From a virus, in IMG/VR virus record IMGVR_UViG_3300033153_000640, positions 1-31,954 of that record: a stretch of 31,954 bases of DNA, one strand, 5' to 3'. This document shows, piece by piece, positions 2,867 through 16,388 of this stretch. The notes under the pieces were generated by a model, which was not told the DNA's origin, did no database searches, and was given only the letters and a program-made list of their open reading frames with translations. A program made the translations under genes and the position numbers. How positions within the stretch are numbered: the first letter of the stretch is position 1; each line of letters starts with the position of its first letter.

Positions 2867-2884
2867 TTTTATATATTTTTTATT

Positions 2885-2938
2885 GTAATAGACTGGTATT
2901 TCTACCAGTTTCGTGTATTAAACACTCATCAGTATTAC
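2885..2938 (-). ncRNA. type I hammerhead self-cleaving ribozyme 1
   Basis: Read on the minus strand, this 54-nt element has every conserved hammerhead part. Stem I pairs GTAATA with TATTAC. Then come the core CTGATGA, stem II (GTGT, loop TTAAT, ACAC) and core GAAA. Stem III is CTGGTA, a GAAA tetraloop and TACCAG. The A of GAAA also pairs with the U before the scissile site, and the site is GTC. Predicted cleavage is between plus-strand positions 2891 and 2890. Beyond stem I an AA/AAT internal loop is followed by a possible T6/A6 helix (2941-2946 with 2876-2881). The TAA of the upstream 42-aa gene lies inside stem I. Hammerheads cleave their own RNA by transesterification, leaving a 2',3'-cyclic phosphate and a 5' hydroxyl. 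Confidence 0.93.
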
Positions 2939-3063
2939 TTAAAAAAGTTTATTATTCTTCTAATTAAACTCGGTTTAGGTAATGTCGGTAAACTCCTATA
3001 AGGTTTTATTTTTTGTCCTTTATAGTTTACACAATACGATATTTCATTTTCTTGGTAGTTCAT
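2935..3063 (-). CDS. small hypothetical protein (42 aa)
   Basis: Direct translation: ATG at 3063, 42 codons, TAA at 2937-2935. It begins MNYQENEISYCVNYKGQK and ends IRRIINFFK, with an acidic start and a basic, hydrophobic end that could be an amphipathic helix. It begins 1 nt after the stop of the 91-aa gene. Its last codons and stop are part of ribozyme 1 stem I, so a terminating ribosome would cover the ribozyme. Confidence 0.65.
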   Translation of the reverse strand: MNYQENEISYCVNYKGQKIKPYRSLPTLPKPSLIRRIINFFK

Positions 3064-3064
3064 C

Positions 3065-3340
3065 TTAATTAAGGTTTTTTAGTTTATACTCTTTTGATTT
3101 TATTTTCTTTTCCGTATCTTGTTTACTCTCTCCTAAAAATATATTTCTATATTTTCCGGTTGTTGTTGAGTAGTCCCAGTAATTTTTGTCCAGTGTAGTT
3201 ATTCCGGTGTTATGATTAATCATACAAATAATACTATCGTAAGACTGAAAAATTGTTGTTCCTTTAGTTCGGATGATAAACTGATTTTTTACCTCGTTTC
3301 CTCCGTGTCCGATTATGTTTGATATTTTAGGTAAGTTCAT
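3065..3340 (-). CDS. conserved small phage protein, WDYSTTTGKYRNIFLGE type (91 aa)
   Basis: The segment FQSYDSIICMI, then a Thr/Leu-Asp turn and WDYSTTTGKYRNIFLGE, form a pattern that I recall from short uncharacterised phage proteins of many hosts. I give no family name because I cannot check it. The layout suggests a small beta sheet followed by a basic C-terminal helix (TEKKIKSKEYKLKNLN). It is 2 nt downstream of the lipoprotein gene. Confidence 0.75.
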   Translation of the reverse strand: MNLPKISNIIGHGGNEVKNQFIIRTKGTTIFQSYDSIICMINHNTGITTLDKNYWDYSTTTGKYRNIFLGESKQDTEKKIKSKEYKLKNLN

Positions 3341-3342
3341 AA

Positions 3343-3597
3343 TTATTCTATTGTTAGTCCTTCATGTTTATACACATCATTAGAGGTTTTTATACAACAT
3401 TCTTTGAATTTTCCGTTGTTCTCTATGATACTATCCCTTTTAATATACAAACTATCGATTGAGTAAGAGTAATTAATCCATAACTCATCCATTTGTTTGT
3501 CTATCTTGTTTATCTCCCCTCGTTGTTCGGTTGTTAGGTGTCCTATCCCACAAGAAGAGAAGAAAACAAGACTACCTATAAAAATACATTTTTTCAT
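3343..3597 (-). CDS. predicted small lipoprotein (84 aa)
   Basis: The N-terminus MKKCIFIGSLVFFSSC is a lipoprotein signal: two lysines, a hydrophobic core and a lipobox ending in Cys16 (FSSC). The mature protein of about 69 residues is charged and helical. In Bacteroidota such proteins are acylated and placed in the inner or outer membrane. Phage-encoded lipoproteins often block superinfection by masking receptors or injection machinery; that is inference. It is the first gene after ribozyme 2, whose cut would leave a 31-nt leader. Confidence 0.75.
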   Translation of the reverse strand: MKKCIFIGSLVFFSSCGIGHLTTEQRGEINKIDKQMDELWINYSYSIDSLYIKRDSIIENNGKFKECCIKTSNDVYKHEGLTIE

Positions 3598-3622
3598 AAC
3601 TTTTTTATTTATTTAATTATTT

Positions 3623-3676
3623 GTTAATGACTGGAATTTCTTCCAGTTTCGGACATTTAGTCCTCATCAGATTAAC
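3623..3676 (-). ncRNA. type I hammerhead self-cleaving ribozyme 2
   Basis: Minus strand, 54 nt, same layout as ribozyme 1. Stem I pairs GTTAAT with ATTAAC, followed by core CTGATGA. Stem II is GGAC, loop TAAAT, GTCC, followed by core GAAA. Stem III is CTGGAA, a GAAA tetraloop and TTCCAG, and the cleavage triplet is GTC. The predicted cut is between plus-strand positions 3629 and 3628. Relative to ribozyme 1, all three stems carry substitutions and every one keeps Watson-Crick pairing, while the core and tetraloop are identical. It begins 2 nt after the stop of the 101-aa gene. Confidence 0.93.
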
Positions 3677-3678
3677 TT

Positions 3679-3984
3679 TTATTCTCTATCAAATGGAATG
3701 TTTAACTCATTACAAAGATCTTGTCCGAACCAGTAAACAAGATGATTTACCAGTTTTTCGGTGTTGTCGAATGTTGTTTGTATCTCTCCGAAATGTTCCA
3801 TCTCATACTCATTACATATATTAACTCCTTCCAGTTCTCCAATGTTATGAAGTTTTAACCATTGTTCAGACTGGTAATATCCTATTATATAATAGTCCTC
3901 GTTAAACATTGTAAAATGATTTTGTTCATCTCTTTGGAAATCGTTAATGTGTTCGGTTAGTTCTTGTCTTACTGAATTTTTCAT
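3679..3984 (-). CDS. hypothetical early protein, first gene of leftward operon (101 aa)
   Basis: A 101-residue acidic soluble protein. The segment YYIIGYYQSEQWLKLHNIG, followed by a C-terminal helical part with LVNHLVYWFGQDL, resembles small uncharacterised phage proteins that I have seen, but I give no name. It is promoter-proximal: a TATCTTTG box lies 48 nt upstream on the minus strand. Ribozyme 2 follows its stop codon, so cleavage would leave this message with a structured 3' end. Confidence 0.78.
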   Translation of the reverse strand: MKNSVRQELTEHINDFQRDEQNHFTMFNEDYYIIGYYQSEQWLKLHNIGELEGVNICNEYEMEHFGEIQTTFDNTEKLVNHLVYWFGQDLCNELNIPFDRE

Positions 3985-5114: not shown

Positions 5115-6737
5115 ATGAAAGACTCTGGATACATTCCAAAAGACTTAGCGTTTAATGAAGACGCAAGAACAAAGCTTACCTCGGGAATCTCTAAAATATC
5201 TAATGCAGTTAAATCAACTCTTGGCCCTCAAGGGCAAACTGTATTGATAGAATCAACAGAACATACTCAAGGATTAACCGTTACTAAAGATGGAGTAACT
5301 GTAGCTAAATCAATATCTCTTATTGACCCAATCGAAAACCTTGCGGTTAGAATGATGAAACAAGCTTCTGAAAAAACAGCTAATACCGCTGGTGATGGAA
5401 CAACTACTGCTATTGTATTAACTGAAGCTTTAGTGAAGGCTGGTCAGAAACATATAAAAGAAGGAGATAATAAAATTAAAATAATTAGAGAGCTCAGAGT
5501 TCAAGGAGAGATAATAGATAATAAAATAAAGACAGAGGCTGTTGAGGTTACTGAGAATATGTTAGAAGATATAGCAACCATCTCTGCGAATAATGATAAA
5601 GAGATTGGTGAGATTATAGCTAAAGCATATAAAGAAGTTGGTAAAGATGGGATAGTAACTGTAGAGCGATCTCAAACAGATAAGACTTTTGCTGAAGTAA
5701 CTAATGGTATTAAAGTAGATAGAGGATGGACTTCTCCTATGTTTATTAATGACCAAAGAAAAGACGAGTGTGTATATGAAGGAGTGAAGATTCTTATATG
5801 TGATTCAGAGATTAGTAACATATTACAAATTGAGAATATATTAAAACCTATTATTAATGCGGGAGACAAGCTTTTAATTATTGGAGATTGCGGACAGAAT
5901 GTTATTAATACAATGGCAGCCAATGTTCAAAGAAATGGATTAAAGTTTTGTAATATACAACCTCCGTCATTTGGATATAAAACTCACGAGTTAATGCAAG
6001 ACATAGCATTTTCTGTAGGAGCTAAATACTTTTCTGAAAAAACAGGAGATGATTTATCTCTAATTAGAATGGAAGACTTAGGGCATGCAGATAAGATTAT
6101 AGTAGGTAAAGACTCTACTATCATTATTAAAGACGGAGAGATTACTAATGAGACTATTGATAGAGTAGAAGAATTAAGAGACCAACAAGAAAGATTAACA
6201 GCTAAACATGAGAAGGATTTTATTAATGAAAGAATAGCTTCTTTAGTTGGAGGGATAGGATGTATACATGTAGGTGCTACATCTGACATAGAACAAAAAG
6301 AAAAATTTGACCGAGTCGATGACTCGGTATGCGCGGTGCGCAGTGCCCTTCAAGAAGGAATTGTGCCAGGAGGAGGGTTGTTATTATACAATATAGCTCA
6401 AACTTATAATGGCAAAAAGACTTCTCATAAAATATTAAAAGAAGCTTTAGAAGCTCCTTTACGTCAAATTCTAAAAAATGCAGGATTAGATAAAAAAGAT
6501 ATATATGATAAGCCAGGGTTTATTCCTAATCTTCCAGAAGGAGGCCTTACTACTAAACAAAAAAAGAATATAGGATATAACGTGGTAACAGGAGAGTATG
6601 GAAATATGTTTGATATGGGGGTTATTGATCCAGCAAGAGTAACCACTCAAGCATTGTCTAACGCTATTAGTGTAGCTACTACCATATTAACTACTAACGC
6701 TATAATTACTCACGCGAGAATAAATAAGGATGAGTAA
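5115..6737 (+). CDS. groEL: GroEL-type group I chaperonin (540 aa)
   Basis: The family folds proteins inside a double heptameric ring by ATP hydrolysis. Here it probably serves phage proteins such as the capsid or tail. Full length (540 against about 545 residues). Visible landmarks are AVKSTLGPQGQTVLIE (31-46), VTKDGVTVA with Asp59, the nucleotide motif GDGTT (93-97), VDDSVCAVRSALQEGIVPGGG (401-421, catalytic Asp403) and the equatorial C-terminal part. The Gly-Gly-Met tail of bacterial GroEL is missing; the protein ends in HARINKDE. The apical domain (about 190-370) is divergent, as expected for an adapted substrate range. Bases 6310-6342, coding for the VDD loop, are locally GC-rich and hold two perfect hairpins. 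The stop overlaps the next gene's start by 8 nt. Confidence 0.97.
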   Translation: MKDSGYIPKDLAFNEDARTKLTSGISKISNAVKSTLGPQGQTVLIESTEHTQGLTVTKDGVTVAKSISLIDPIENLAVRMMKQASEKTANTAGDGTTTAIVLTEALVKAGQKHIKEGDNKIKIIRELRVQGEIIDNKIKTEAVEVTENMLEDIATISANNDKEIGEIIAKAYKEVGKDGIVTVERSQTDKTFAEVTNGIKVDRGWTSPMFINDQRKDECVYEGVKILICDSEISNILQIENILKPIINAGDKLLIIGDCGQNVINTMAANVQRNGLKFCNIQPPSFGYKTHELMQDIAFSVGAKYFSEKTGDDLSLIRMEDLGHADKIIVGKDSTIIIKDGEITNETIDRVEELRDQQERLTAKHEKDFINERIASLVGGIGCIHVGATSDIEQKEKFDRVDDSVCAVRSALQEGIVPGGGLLLYNIAQTYNGKKTSHKILKEALEAPLRQILKNAGLDKKDIYDKPGFIPNLPEGGLTTKQKKNIGYNVVTGEYGNMFDMGVIDPARVTTQALSNAISVATTILTTNAIITHARINKDE

Positions 6738-7029
6738 AAAATATTATAAAAGTCAGTATACTACAGAGTATATTAGACTTTGTGATATTAATGGAGACTT
6801 TACTAATTACACTATACATCAGTTAATAACTAATGATAGAGGTTATGATTGGACTGGGCTTTTGCACGATATAGATAATAACGGATTAAAAGAATTAATA
6901 GAGGTTACTAAGAAAGAAGGAAAGTATTGGGTGGTTCAAGGAAATCATAGACTTAAGATTCTTCAGTATTTGTACCCGAAATGTAATGTATTAAAATTTA
7001 AAATAAAAAGATATGAAACCAATAGGTAA
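6730..7029 (+). CDS. ParB/Srx-fold small protein (99 aa)
   Basis: The segment LLHDIDNNGLKELIEVTKKEGKYWVVQGNHRLKILQYL (residues 44-81) matches the ParB-like nuclease/CTPase domain: a helix, a short basic beta hairpin, then the GNHRL loop that corresponds to the family's G-x-x-R motif. Only this domain is present, with no helix-turn-helix. Such stand-alone domains occur in phages as DNA- or nucleotide-binding proteins. It overlaps groEL (ATGAGTAA) and the groES start, so it is made together with the chaperonins. A role in chaperonin function is not implied by the fold. Confidence 0.7.
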   Translation: MSKKYYKSQYTTEYIRLCDINGDFTNYTIHQLITNDRGYDWTGLLHDIDNNGLKELIEVTKKEGKYWVVQGNHRLKILQYLYPKCNVLKFKIKRYETNR

Positions 7030-7270
7030 GTATATTATAATTAAATCGATAAAAGAAGAATTAAAAACAGAATCAGGACTTTTACTTTCTGCTCAAGATG
7101 CGTCTGACTTTAGATACAAAAAAGGAGAAGTAATAAAAGAAGGAACTGATGTTAATGTCATAAAGAAAGGAGACATAGTTTATTATGACGGAGCGGCTGG
7201 ACATCAAATGCTTATTGAAGATAATCCATATACGATTATTACTGAGAGAGATGTCGTTGTTGTTTTATAA
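7013..7270 (+). CDS. groES: GroES-type co-chaperonin (85 aa)
   Basis: GroES caps the GroEL ring. Seen here: N-terminal PIGKYIIIK, the mobile-loop region KTESGLLLSAQDASDF (about 19-34, SGLLL standing for the usual GGIVL), then GEVIKEG, VIKKGDIVYYDGAAGHQMLIE and the C-terminal strand YTIITERDVVVVL. At 85 residues it is about 10 shorter than bacterial GroES, mainly in the roof and C-terminal region. The start at 7013 overlaps the upstream gene. The 3' end overlaps the convergent regulator gene by 32 nt. Its linkage to groEL strongly supports a phage-specific pair. Confidence 0.93.
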   Translation: MKPIGKYIIIKSIKEELKTESGLLLSAQDASDFRYKKGEVIKEGTDVNVIKKGDIVYYDGAAGHQMLIEDNPYTIITERDVVVVL

Positions 7271-13521: not shown

Positions 13522-14112
13522 ATGGCAAAAATTGAAAACACAGTCGCATACCCCTTAGTCAAGCCTCAAGCTAACGACTATGTGGTGCTAACAGATGTTA
13601 GTGATAATAATGAAACTAAAACCTGTTTAGTTGGCGACTTGTGGGCTTTTTATGGTTGGAAATATTTTGATAGAACTTTAACAGCTGCAGAGGTTTTAGG
13701 CGCAGAAGCTATGCCGGTTATTTTAATACCAGCTCAAGGAGCAGGAGTAATAGTTATGCCTGAGATAGGAGAATTGGTCGCTCAGACAATAACCAATACC
13801 TCAGTTCCTCCCGACAACTTTGATTGCACTAATCAAGCGTGGATAAGGTCAGCCAGTTCTATTAGTACTTGTAACATATATGCTATGGACGAAAACAATA
13901 TAAACCAATCAGGATTTCCTTGGCCGCTTACAACAAATCTTGTTTATGGAAGTCGTGCTCAGACAGGGGATAATCAATATGGAAACGATATGACTGGTAT
14001 GGTAAACGAACCGATTGTTTTTACATTTGATGCTGGTGATGGACCAACAAACGGAAATGGGTCAATAAGGATTACTTTTAGATATAGAATACTTTCAGGA
14101 TTTAATTTATAG
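13522..14112 (+). CDS. short fibre-type virion protein (196 aa)
   Basis: The first 40 or so residues (MAKIENTVAYPLVKPQANDY, TDVSDNNETKTCLVGDL) are nearly the same as those of the next gene, down to the nucleotide level, so the two share an anchoring domain by duplication. The rest is an all-beta domain ending GNGSIRITFRYRILSGFNL, likely a knob or capsule-binding head. I infer an attachment-tip protein that docks to the same virion site as the 757-aa fibre. Confidence 0.7.
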   Translation: MAKIENTVAYPLVKPQANDYVVLTDVSDNNETKTCLVGDLWAFYGWKYFDRTLTAAEVLGAEAMPVILIPAQGAGVIVMPEIGELVAQTITNTSVPPDNFDCTNQAWIRSASSISTCNIYAMDENNINQSGFPWPLTTNLVYGSRAQTGDNQYGNDMTGMVNEPIVFTFDAGDGPTNGNGSIRITFRYRILSGFNL

Positions 14113-14114
14113 AA

Positions 14115-16388
14115 ATGGCAAAAATTGAAAATACAGTCGCATATCCTACGGTTACACCATCCGCAGACGACTTACTAATAGCAACAGACACGAGTGACGA
14201 TAATAAGACGGTTACGTTTTTAGTTGGAGCAATTGCAGGCGGTGGTCCTCTTCAAGGACTTCAATCTGTTTTAGACACAGGTAATACCGCTACTCAAAAC
14301 ATGACCCTCACAGGTGTAGGACCAGGTGGAGGTATAACCGTAGTCGGTACAATTTATCCTACTACAATTACCGCTGGAGGATCCGTTGGTGCGGCAGGTC
14401 AGATACTATCATCTACAGGAACAGGTATTCAGTGGATTAATTCTCCTGCTACTTCTTGTTGTAGTTGGAATGATACTTTAACTATAAACAATACAGCTGT
14501 TCAAAAAGCTATAGTGGACGGAGCTACCTTTCAAATTATAAATGCGGGAGGTCAGTTAGAGATATTAAGTCCGGCTGCTTTAGTTAACACCGGAACTTCA
14601 GCATTTTCTGGACAAGTAAATATTAATAGCACTACGTTAAATTTTAATTCAACAGCTTTATTGAATGATGGTGCTGGTTCGGTAGGAACTCCGGGACAAT
14701 TTTTAACATCCACAGGTACGGGAGTAGCATGGTCAAGCTCATTACCTCCAGCTTCTTGTTGCGGATTACAAAGCACGATTGCTTCAGGAAACACGTCTAC
14801 CAGTCAAAATGTTACCTTATCAGGAACCGGTGTCTGGACATACGAGCCTAACGTTTCTATTAATTCAGAAGGAAATAATAGTTGGGCAGGAAATAATCAA
14901 TATACTAATACTGGAGTAACAGGTTCCACCTCAGCAATATCTTTATTAGGAAGTTTATGGGACGGAACTTCTGTAGGGACTGCAGGACAGGTATTAACAT
15001 CTACAGGAACAGGGGTGTTATGGGCTGCGGCCAGCGGAGGAACACAAGATTTACAATCTGTTTTAGATACAGGAAACTCAGCGTCAGGAGCAAATGCCGA
15101 TATAACTATTTCAGGAACATTAGATGCTGGGACTATAACAGATTCTACATCCTCAGTCGGATTAGCGGGACAAATATTATCATCTACAGGAACAGGTTTA
15201 ACATGGATTAATGCTGCTTGTTGTGATTTACAAGACACTTTAACAGCGGGAAATACAGCTATCACCAGTATAATTTTATCAGGAGCAGGTACTAACGTTA
15301 CAGCTCCTCTTATGATTCCAACTCAAATTGAAGATGCGACAGGATCTACTGGAGCCATTGGGCAAGTTTTAGGATTAAATGCATTAGGAACCGCAATAGA
15401 ATGGGTAGCTGGAGGTGGTGGAGGTGGAGTAACGTCCGTAAACTCATCATTAGGTTCTTCAGCAGGAGCCCCATTAACAATAGCTCCAACAACAGGAGCA
15501 GTAATAATTCAGTCTAACGCTTATGCTGGAACTACTAACGTTGGACATGTACCAACAGGAGGTAGTGCTACAACATTCTTAAGAGGAGATGGAACATGGG
15601 TTACACCAAGTGCTACCGCAGGAGTAAGTGACCTAAGTGTAGGGGCAATTAGCGCTTCAACAGGATTGCCACTTTTAATTAGCCCAGTCTCTCCAGCAAC
15701 AGGATCAGTAACTATTAATCAAGCAAGATATACAGGAGATTTGAATGAAGGATGTGTTCCAAGAGGTTCAGGAAATGATGCTACTAAATATTTAGATGGT
15801 ACAGGAAACTGGACAGTTCCAGCAGGTGGAGGTGGTAGCAAATCATGGGAAAACATACACCAAAGGTTCTATATGACTAAAACAGTTCCAGGCGCTGACT
15901 ACTGGACCTTCCCATCATTAGCTGATATTACTGTGGGTAATAAGGATATAAATCAATTACTATACAACAACGCTAACGCTCCAGACCATGCTCATTGGAA
16001 TCAAGGAGAATTAAACGGGGGTATGTTTTATAGATTAGCGGAAATAAACGGATGTGATGCGGATATATCAGGTTTAACATTTTGTTCTTTGAGTTTTCAG
16101 ATTACAGCTGATGTTGCCGACACTTATGGTTTAGCTGTATATGGCTTTGACCCTTGTAGCACCGCAACACCTGTCTATCTAATTGGAGCATGCGAGATGT
16201 TAATTGGAGGAGCACCTACTCCAACAGAACCAGAAGTAGCATGTTGTAGTGCAGACTCGCTTAGTAGTAATGTACTTGCGCCCGGCCACGGTTTAATTCT
16301 TACTATGCGAACGTTAGGTGGATTAGGAACACCAACTGTTGCGGGGAGTGTTTCACTGAGAGCGGAGCACACAAGTGGAACGAAATAA
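14115..16388 (+). CDS. long repetitive tail fibre protein (757 aa)
   Basis: The N-terminal anchor (1-45) is shared with the upstream 196-aa protein. Residues about 45-440 hold some five imperfect repeats of 75-110 residues. Each has a piece like LQSVLDTGNTA, a beta segment ending in SG/TG, then GxxGQxLxSTGTGxxW. Three are followed or preceded by a CC pair (SCCSW, SCCGLQ, ACCDLQ). A Gly-rich linker (VAGGGGGG) and repeats of FLRGDGTWVTP and YLDGTGNWTVP type follow. The C-terminal 200 residues from KSWENIHQRF form a different domain with several Cys, a probable receptor-binding head. Ser/Thr/Gly/Ala-rich composition fits a trimeric fibre. Confidence 0.85.
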   Translation: MAKIENTVAYPTVTPSADDLLIATDTSDDNKTVTFLVGAIAGGGPLQGLQSVLDTGNTATQNMTLTGVGPGGGITVVGTIYPTTITAGGSVGAAGQILSSTGTGIQWINSPATSCCSWNDTLTINNTAVQKAIVDGATFQIINAGGQLEILSPAALVNTGTSAFSGQVNINSTTLNFNSTALLNDGAGSVGTPGQFLTSTGTGVAWSSSLPPASCCGLQSTIASGNTSTSQNVTLSGTGVWTYEPNVSINSEGNNSWAGNNQYTNTGVTGSTSAISLLGSLWDGTSVGTAGQVLTSTGTGVLWAAASGGTQDLQSVLDTGNSASGANADITISGTLDAGTITDSTSSVGLAGQILSSTGTGLTWINAACCDLQDTLTAGNTAITSIILSGAGTNVTAPLMIPTQIEDATGSTGAIGQVLGLNALGTAIEWVAGGGGGGVTSVNSSLGSSAGAPLTIAPTTGAVIIQSNAYAGTTNVGHVPTGGSATTFLRGDGTWVTPSATAGVSDLSVGAISASTGLPLLISPVSPATGSVTINQARYTGDLNEGCVPRGSGNDATKYLDGTGNWTVPAGGGGSKSWENIHQRFYMTKTVPGADYWTFPSLADITVGNKDINQLLYNNANAPDHAHWNQGELNGGMFYRLAEINGCDADISGLTFCSLSFQITADVADTYGLAVYGFDPCSTATPVYLIGACEMLIGGAPTPTEPEVACCSADSLSSNVLAPGHGLILTMRTLGGLGTPTVAGSVSLRAEHTSGTK

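Follow-up and report, generated by a model that had tools for sequence, protein, structure and literature searches.

Two 54-nt elements on the minus strand of a phage genome (IMG/VR record IMGVR_UViG_3300033153_000640, positions 1 to 31,954; the window, that is, the whole 31,954-nt stretch analysed) have the core and stems of hammerhead ribozymes and lie at gene junctions. We propose, with a probability of about 0.77, that both are active type-I hammerheads, cutting a polycistronic transcript of the phage where one gene meets the next. This proposal is inferred from an intact core, three covarying stems, a placement between stop and start codons and recurrence in many unrelated phages; there are no cleavage or transcript data for this form. 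That the elements are real hammerhead-type RNAs under selection we regard as extremely likely, and our confidence that they cleave is nearly as high, self-cleavage itself being an inference.

What hammerheads do in bacteria and phages has been described as unknown (PMC10085705, PMC6155905). The stop-to-start placement reported here, with up to 14 copies per contig, makes gene-by-gene cutting of messages directly testable, and the cultured Flavobacterium elemo phages, which carry the element in 68/68 matching records, offer a tractable test system. The elements could also be used in synthetic operons, as compact natural insulators between genes.

Two hammerheads and their gene context

A first-pass annotation of the window had described positions 3623–3676 as a 54-nt hammerhead with a GAAA tetraloop, covarying with a first copy. 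Inspection of the minus strand confirmed the described sequence, stems and tetraloop at 3623–3676 (ribozyme 2) and likewise at 2885–2938 (ribozyme 1), with the following parts.

3623–3676, minus strand: hammerhead ribozyme 2, type I; model match 61.7 bits, E = 7.9e-14
3671–3676 with 3623–3628, minus strand: stem I of ribozyme 2
3664–3670, minus strand: core CTGATGA of ribozyme 2
3660–3663 with 3651–3654, minus strand: stem II of ribozyme 2; loop TAAAT at 3655–3659
3648–3650, minus strand: GAA of ribozyme 2
3641–3647 with 3630–3636, minus strand: stem III of ribozyme 2; GAAA tetraloop at 3637–3640
3629, minus strand: C17 of ribozyme 2; predicted cut 3629/3628
2885–2938, minus strand: hammerhead ribozyme 1, architecture as in ribozyme 2; model match 62.0 bits, E = 6.7e-14
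2933–2938 with 2885–2890, minus strand: stem I of ribozyme 1
2926–2932, minus strand: core of ribozyme 1
2913–2925, minus strand: stem II and loop of ribozyme 1
2892–2909, minus strand: stem III of ribozyme 1; GAAA at 2899–2902
2891/2890, minus strand: predicted cut of ribozyme 1

Read on the minus strand, ribozyme 2 (3676 to 3623) is GTTAAT-CTGATGA-GGAC(TAAAT)GTCC-GAA-ACTGGAA(GAAA)TTCCAGT-C/ATTAAC and ribozyme 1 (2938 to 2885) is GTAATA-CTGATGA-GTGT(TTAAT)ACAC-GAA-ACTGGTA(GAAA)TACCAGT-C/TATTAC, the slash marking the predicted cut. Core membership (CUGANGA, GAA, the A15.1–U16.1 pair and H17) is complete in both copies, and both fulfil the type I permutation with its open stem I. All the compensations that the annotation had listed between the copies are present: GTAATA/TATTAC to GTTAAT/ATTAAC in stem I, GTGT/ACAC to GGAC/GTCC in stem II and one T-A to A-T exchange in stem III. 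Its further claim that the copies are independent is not shown, as they may be paralogues; the compensatory changes hold in both cases. The cut that it placed between 3629 and 3628 follows from C17 at 3629 and remains a prediction, with cleavage inferred.

The core pattern matches twice in the window, against 0.00 matches expected, and never in shuffled copies. For each copy, the 58-nt element has precisely the hammerhead as its minimum free energy (MFE) fold (−15.9 kcal/mol, z = −3.35, with 0/200 shuffles as good, and −14.0 kcal/mol, z = −3.04, with 2/200). In a 111-nt context ribozyme 1 retains the full hammerhead fold; the stem I of ribozyme 2, which is AT-rich and weak, falls outside the MFE structure there, with stems II and III kept. 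A covariance model built from 71 elements, with the window and a near-identical relative left out, recovers both copies at the scores listed above. The core columns of the 71 aligned elements are invariant except for free position 7, these elements having been chosen by the core pattern. Relatives of the window itself add little: contig G001 (99.9% identical) is too close to provide evolutionary information on the ribozyme 2 locus, and MW202828.1 gave no ribozyme match, nor were any window proteins found in the searched part of that record.

Both ribozymes lie in a series of small genes on the same strand.

3679–3984, minus strand: gene upstream of ribozyme 2, 101 aa, unknown function, phrog_10208
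3598–3628, minus strand: A-rich 31-nt leader that would begin the downstream mRNA after the cut (family median 27 nt)
3343–3597, minus strand: gene downstream of ribozyme 2, 84 aa; weak match only, to phrog_5353, unknown function
3065–3340, minus strand: 91-aa gene between the two ribozymes, phrog_21575, unknown function
2935–3063, minus strand: 42-aa ORF upstream of ribozyme 1; stop TAA at 2935–2937, inside stem I
2867–2890, minus strand: 24-nt leader in the sequence, from the cut of ribozyme 1 to the next start codon
2549–2866, minus strand: gene downstream of ribozyme 1, 105 aa, without a family match
2891–3628, minus strand: 738-nt RNA that cleavage by both ribozymes would release, inferred from the two cut sites

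The stop codon of the 101-aa gene (TAA, 3679–3681) stands 2 nt before stem I of ribozyme 2. The predicted 738-nt RNA, with a 5′-OH and a 2′,3′-cyclic phosphate at its ends, would hold the 84-, 91- and 42-aa ORFs, all three complete.

Judged by terminase, the window phage is a relative of the elemo and Cellulophaga phages. Within the 91-aa gene, about 100 bp (3079–3186) are 76–80% identical to genes of 11 Pelagibacter phages, which, judged from the sequence of this Flavobacterium/Cellulophaga-related phage, is gene sharing between phages of distant hosts. The phage also appears to encode GroEL and GroES (5115–6737 and 7013–7270), as does MW202828.1, and two adjacent, probably structural proteins (13522–14112 and 14115–16388) have a common N terminus, MAKIENTVAYP, which suggests that both use one segment for assembly or attachment.

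A compact form recurring in many phages

To find relatives, we ran pattern searches, with stem I left unspecified, against 2.9 million viral contigs. Three patterns matched 15, at least 120 and 62 stretches of DNA, and a control pattern with a mutated core gave 0 matches among the viral contigs, compared with at least 120 for the real pattern. The first pattern found two loci in a collection of bacterial and archaeal genomes. Among the matches listed there are 241 distinct elements at 145 loci, all of one compact form; this count requires three stems and includes near-duplicate copies of the window. When whole contigs were searched, G002 (39.8 kb) gave 14 elements, G051 13, G010 8, and G003, G004 and G015 7 each; the copies run in series on one strand and, as mapped for G002, are mostly intergenic. 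Named carriers include Pelagibacter phages HTVC019P, HTVC131P and Jormungand, Cellulophaga phage phi19:3 and Agrobacterium phage OLIVR1. A query of phages for a third form of the ribozyme was negative, and no homologues of the four window genes were found near the elemo ribozyme. One of the two loci from the bacterial and archaeal collection, a 5.8-kb contig from a metagenome-assembled genome (MAG) labelled Aliivibrio (JAAGZR010000219.1), with nine model matches in series on one strand between small genes, is probably a phage fragment binned into that MAG.

The compact form has a 6-bp open stem I, usually a 4-bp stem II, a U-N-A-N-U-like loop II and a tetraloop-capped stem III. Stem I is exactly 6 bp in 216/241 elements. 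In matches that were not selected by loop II, the first base of this loop is U in 116/118 and the third is A in 106/118. On the two sides of stem I, the adjoining base is A in 205/240 and 215/240 elements. These preferences, which are features of sequence alone, suggest that loop II makes a tertiary contact with the A residues beyond the short stem I. Watson–Crick pairing of at least four bases between loop II and either stem I flank, as a pseudoknot would require, is possible in 40/207 elements, compared with 44 ± 4 expected, without excess over shuffles. Two variants of the form were seen. At four Pelagibacter phage loci (L198, L212, L213 and L216), the ribozyme lies upstream of a MarR regulator/integrase block, GUA replaces GUC at the cut and stem I runs straight into an ATG. 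At three others (L036, on G003, L174 and L197), stem I has 5 bp and the stems are rich in G and C, often followed by an AGGAGG-like ribosome-binding site; this sub-form may belong to phages of a different host group.

Selection on RNA structure, which the annotation had inferred from the two window copies, is upheld by the search of related phage contigs that it proposed: hundreds of relatives were found, and both their stem I pairing and their covariation at homologous junctions support it. All six stem I positions are paired in 18/19, 133/143 and 45/49 pattern matches, and in 7–12% after the strands are re-dealt, a test independent of the search patterns because these leave stem I unspecified. 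Elements that precede homologous genes on different contigs differ, in their stem I and stem II pairs, by 167 two-sided and 8 one-sided changes that keep pairing and by 0 that break it. This comparison scores only matches with at least 10 pairs in all, so the count of zero is somewhat biased; the 100% pairing in alignment A1 is an artefact of row selection and is not used as evidence.

Unpaired stems in relatives, named by the annotation as a possible refutation, do occur in a small group at a different place: 2/6 elemo representatives have two mismatches in stem II, a genuine exception. For the exact window locus no sufficiently divergent relative is available. Five ribozyme positions vary among the elemo phages; four of them make up two base pairs of stem II, and the remaining one is the free core position. 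Stem II is fully paired both as GACT/AGTC and as GGTT/AACC; elemoF and elemoD have a mixed, mismatched GACT/AACC, and this ribozyme may be an intermediate or a weakened form.

Placement between genes and a possible role

The position of the elements relative to coding sequence is constrained: they meet an intercistronic criterion in which the predicted cut falls after a stop codon and before a start codon, between two genes on the same strand. The ATG of a same-strand ORF of at least 40 aa lies within 150 nt of the predicted cut in 223/231 elements (46/231 on the opposite strand), at a median distance of 27 nt (quartiles 23–30). Stem I marks the end of a same-strand ORF of 100 aa or more in 74/210 cases, and such an ORF begins after the cut in 73/210, each compared with 6/210 in the control. 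An upstream stop codon precedes the cut in 232/232 scored elements. The window copies fit this placement, with starts 31 nt (ribozyme 2) and 24 nt (ribozyme 1) past the cut. On the opposite strand, a ‘hypothetical protein’ annotated over an elemo phage ribozyme (MT497017.1, 17275–17382; L218:2776–2883) is probably not a gene.

In the proposed mechanism, which extends hammerhead chemistry to these transcripts, the RNA would cut itself after C17. The upstream mRNA would keep its stop codon and finish with the hairpins of stems II and III and a 2′,3′-cyclic phosphate, and the downstream mRNA would begin, at a 5′-OH, with the released stem I strand as part of a short unstructured leader that holds the ribosome-binding site. 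Constitutive division of operon transcripts in this way could give each piece its own stability and translation. By extrapolation from what is generally known of RNA decay in bacteria, the 3′ hairpins may hinder 3′ exonucleases much as a terminator hairpin does, and the 5′-OH end may avoid decay stimulated by a 5′ monophosphate. Several observations weigh against the proposal: most starts of homologous genes on other contigs lack the element, two elemo representatives have the mismatched stem II, the relative MW202828.1 gave no match, and stem I of ribozyme 2 drops out of the MFE fold in the longer context.

The same placement admits a different reading, in which a ribosome completing translation of the upstream gene would occlude stem I and the core. 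Cleavage would then depend on that translation, and the ribozyme would report or control translation and not act constitutively. In most elements the upstream stop codon either adjoins the ribozyme or falls within it, frequently in stem I or in the core (offsets from the stem I start peak at 0, 1, 6 and 10 nt), as such gating would predict. However, stem I and the core contain TAA and TGA, which makes the overlap partly mechanical, and compact phage genomes yield overlaps anyway; we consider translation gating unlikely, without setting it aside.

A more improbable reading is that a selfish or passively duplicated cassette, of little function, has spread within phage genomes as ribozyme plus leader by recombination between similar copies. 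At one locus (L143, 6232–7944 and further copies, minus strand), near-identical cassettes of a ribozyme and an approximately 40-nt leader precede different genes, evidence, at the level of sequence, that the two may be copied as one unit. The distribution is also patchy: on the other contigs compared the element is present at only 69/187 starts of homologous genes, and is therefore dispensable at a given junction. Against a merely selfish origin, long-term compensatory change in all stems indicates selection on structure, the rigid same-strand stop-to-start placement indicates selection on position, and no mobility gene was seen in the element.

We are very doubtful of an elaboration in which paired ribozymes release segments that host RtcB would join into circular mRNAs (here a 738-nt circle with three ORFs). 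No phage-encoded RtcB was found in 32 phage records, in a search in which control genomes gave matches, so the host would have to supply the enzyme; a search for T4-type RNA ligase gave no phage match, but its control gave none either.

We give scant credence to a ligand- or condition-responsive 5′-UTR regulator of the downstream gene. The start codon is close by, and a similar role has been suggested for the HF1/HF2 hammerhead (PMC3088659), but the loops are short, without an extra ligand-binding domain, and the downstream genes are very diverse. They include RNA polymerases, endolysin, tail lysins, anti-restriction proteins and many unknowns, and no common function or family was found among them, which fits a general processing element. 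Finally, DNA-level or terminator-type inverted repeats that mimic a hammerhead would explain stable hairpins between genes, but this already disfavoured idea has next to no standing given that the unpaired core residues are invariant, the altered-core pattern finds nothing and stem I pairs at a distance and covaries.

Relation to known hammerheads

By core, stems and permutation the elements are hammerheads, and they lie outside the curated Rfam families at threshold. When the window was scanned with Rfam, first at the gathering cut-off and then with E-values relaxed, RAGATH-1 was the only hammerhead family to match, below its threshold; matches to PyrR and the L20 leader likewise fell short of the cut-off. 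Across 12 multi-copy loci, one element reached the Rfam cut-off, with about 50 further elements present there. What appears to be new is the compact form itself, largely missed by Rfam, its scale, its rigid placement between stop and start codons and its cultured carriers, with the reservation that a recent description could be missed, subscription papers and preprints being unsearched.

The best Rfam match to the window copies, the RAGATH-1 hammerhead (RF03152), is alike in permutation and core, and the copies score 29.1 and 23.6 bits, short of the 56.3-bit cut-off. RAGATH-1 has an upstream hairpin, whose position is occupied by coding sequence at ribozyme 2, and a longer stem III, which the window copies lack. 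Hammerhead_1 (RF00163, clan CL00010), which neither window copy matches, shares with the phage form the CUGANGA and GAA core, the A-U pair, C17, three stems and an open stem I. In contrast to RF00163, however, the phage form ends its 6-bp stem I in single-stranded A residues, without an internal loop or second helix, and has a conserved U-N-A-N-U-like loop II.

A precedent in setting is the clustered prophage hammerheads of Perreault et al. (2011), for which processing of long phage transcripts has already been proposed, with cleavage shown for three prophage clusters in vitro and for one in E. coli (PMC3088659). There, as here, several hammerheads flank genes in phage-related operons (PMC3088659). 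The tested arrays contained three ribozymes (PMC3088659), whereas the compact form reaches 14 per contig, and about 40% of that collection use a Watson–Crick pseudoknot (PMC3088659), for which pairing in the compact phage form is no more frequent than chance. The hammerhead of haloviruses HF1/HF2 lies 13 nt upstream of a start codon, and a transcript 5′ end maps within 3 nt of its cut (PMC3088659). This HHphage hammerhead has a variant core and is known from one archaeal virus pair (PMC3088659), whereas the compact form has canonical cores and occurs in many bacterial phages.
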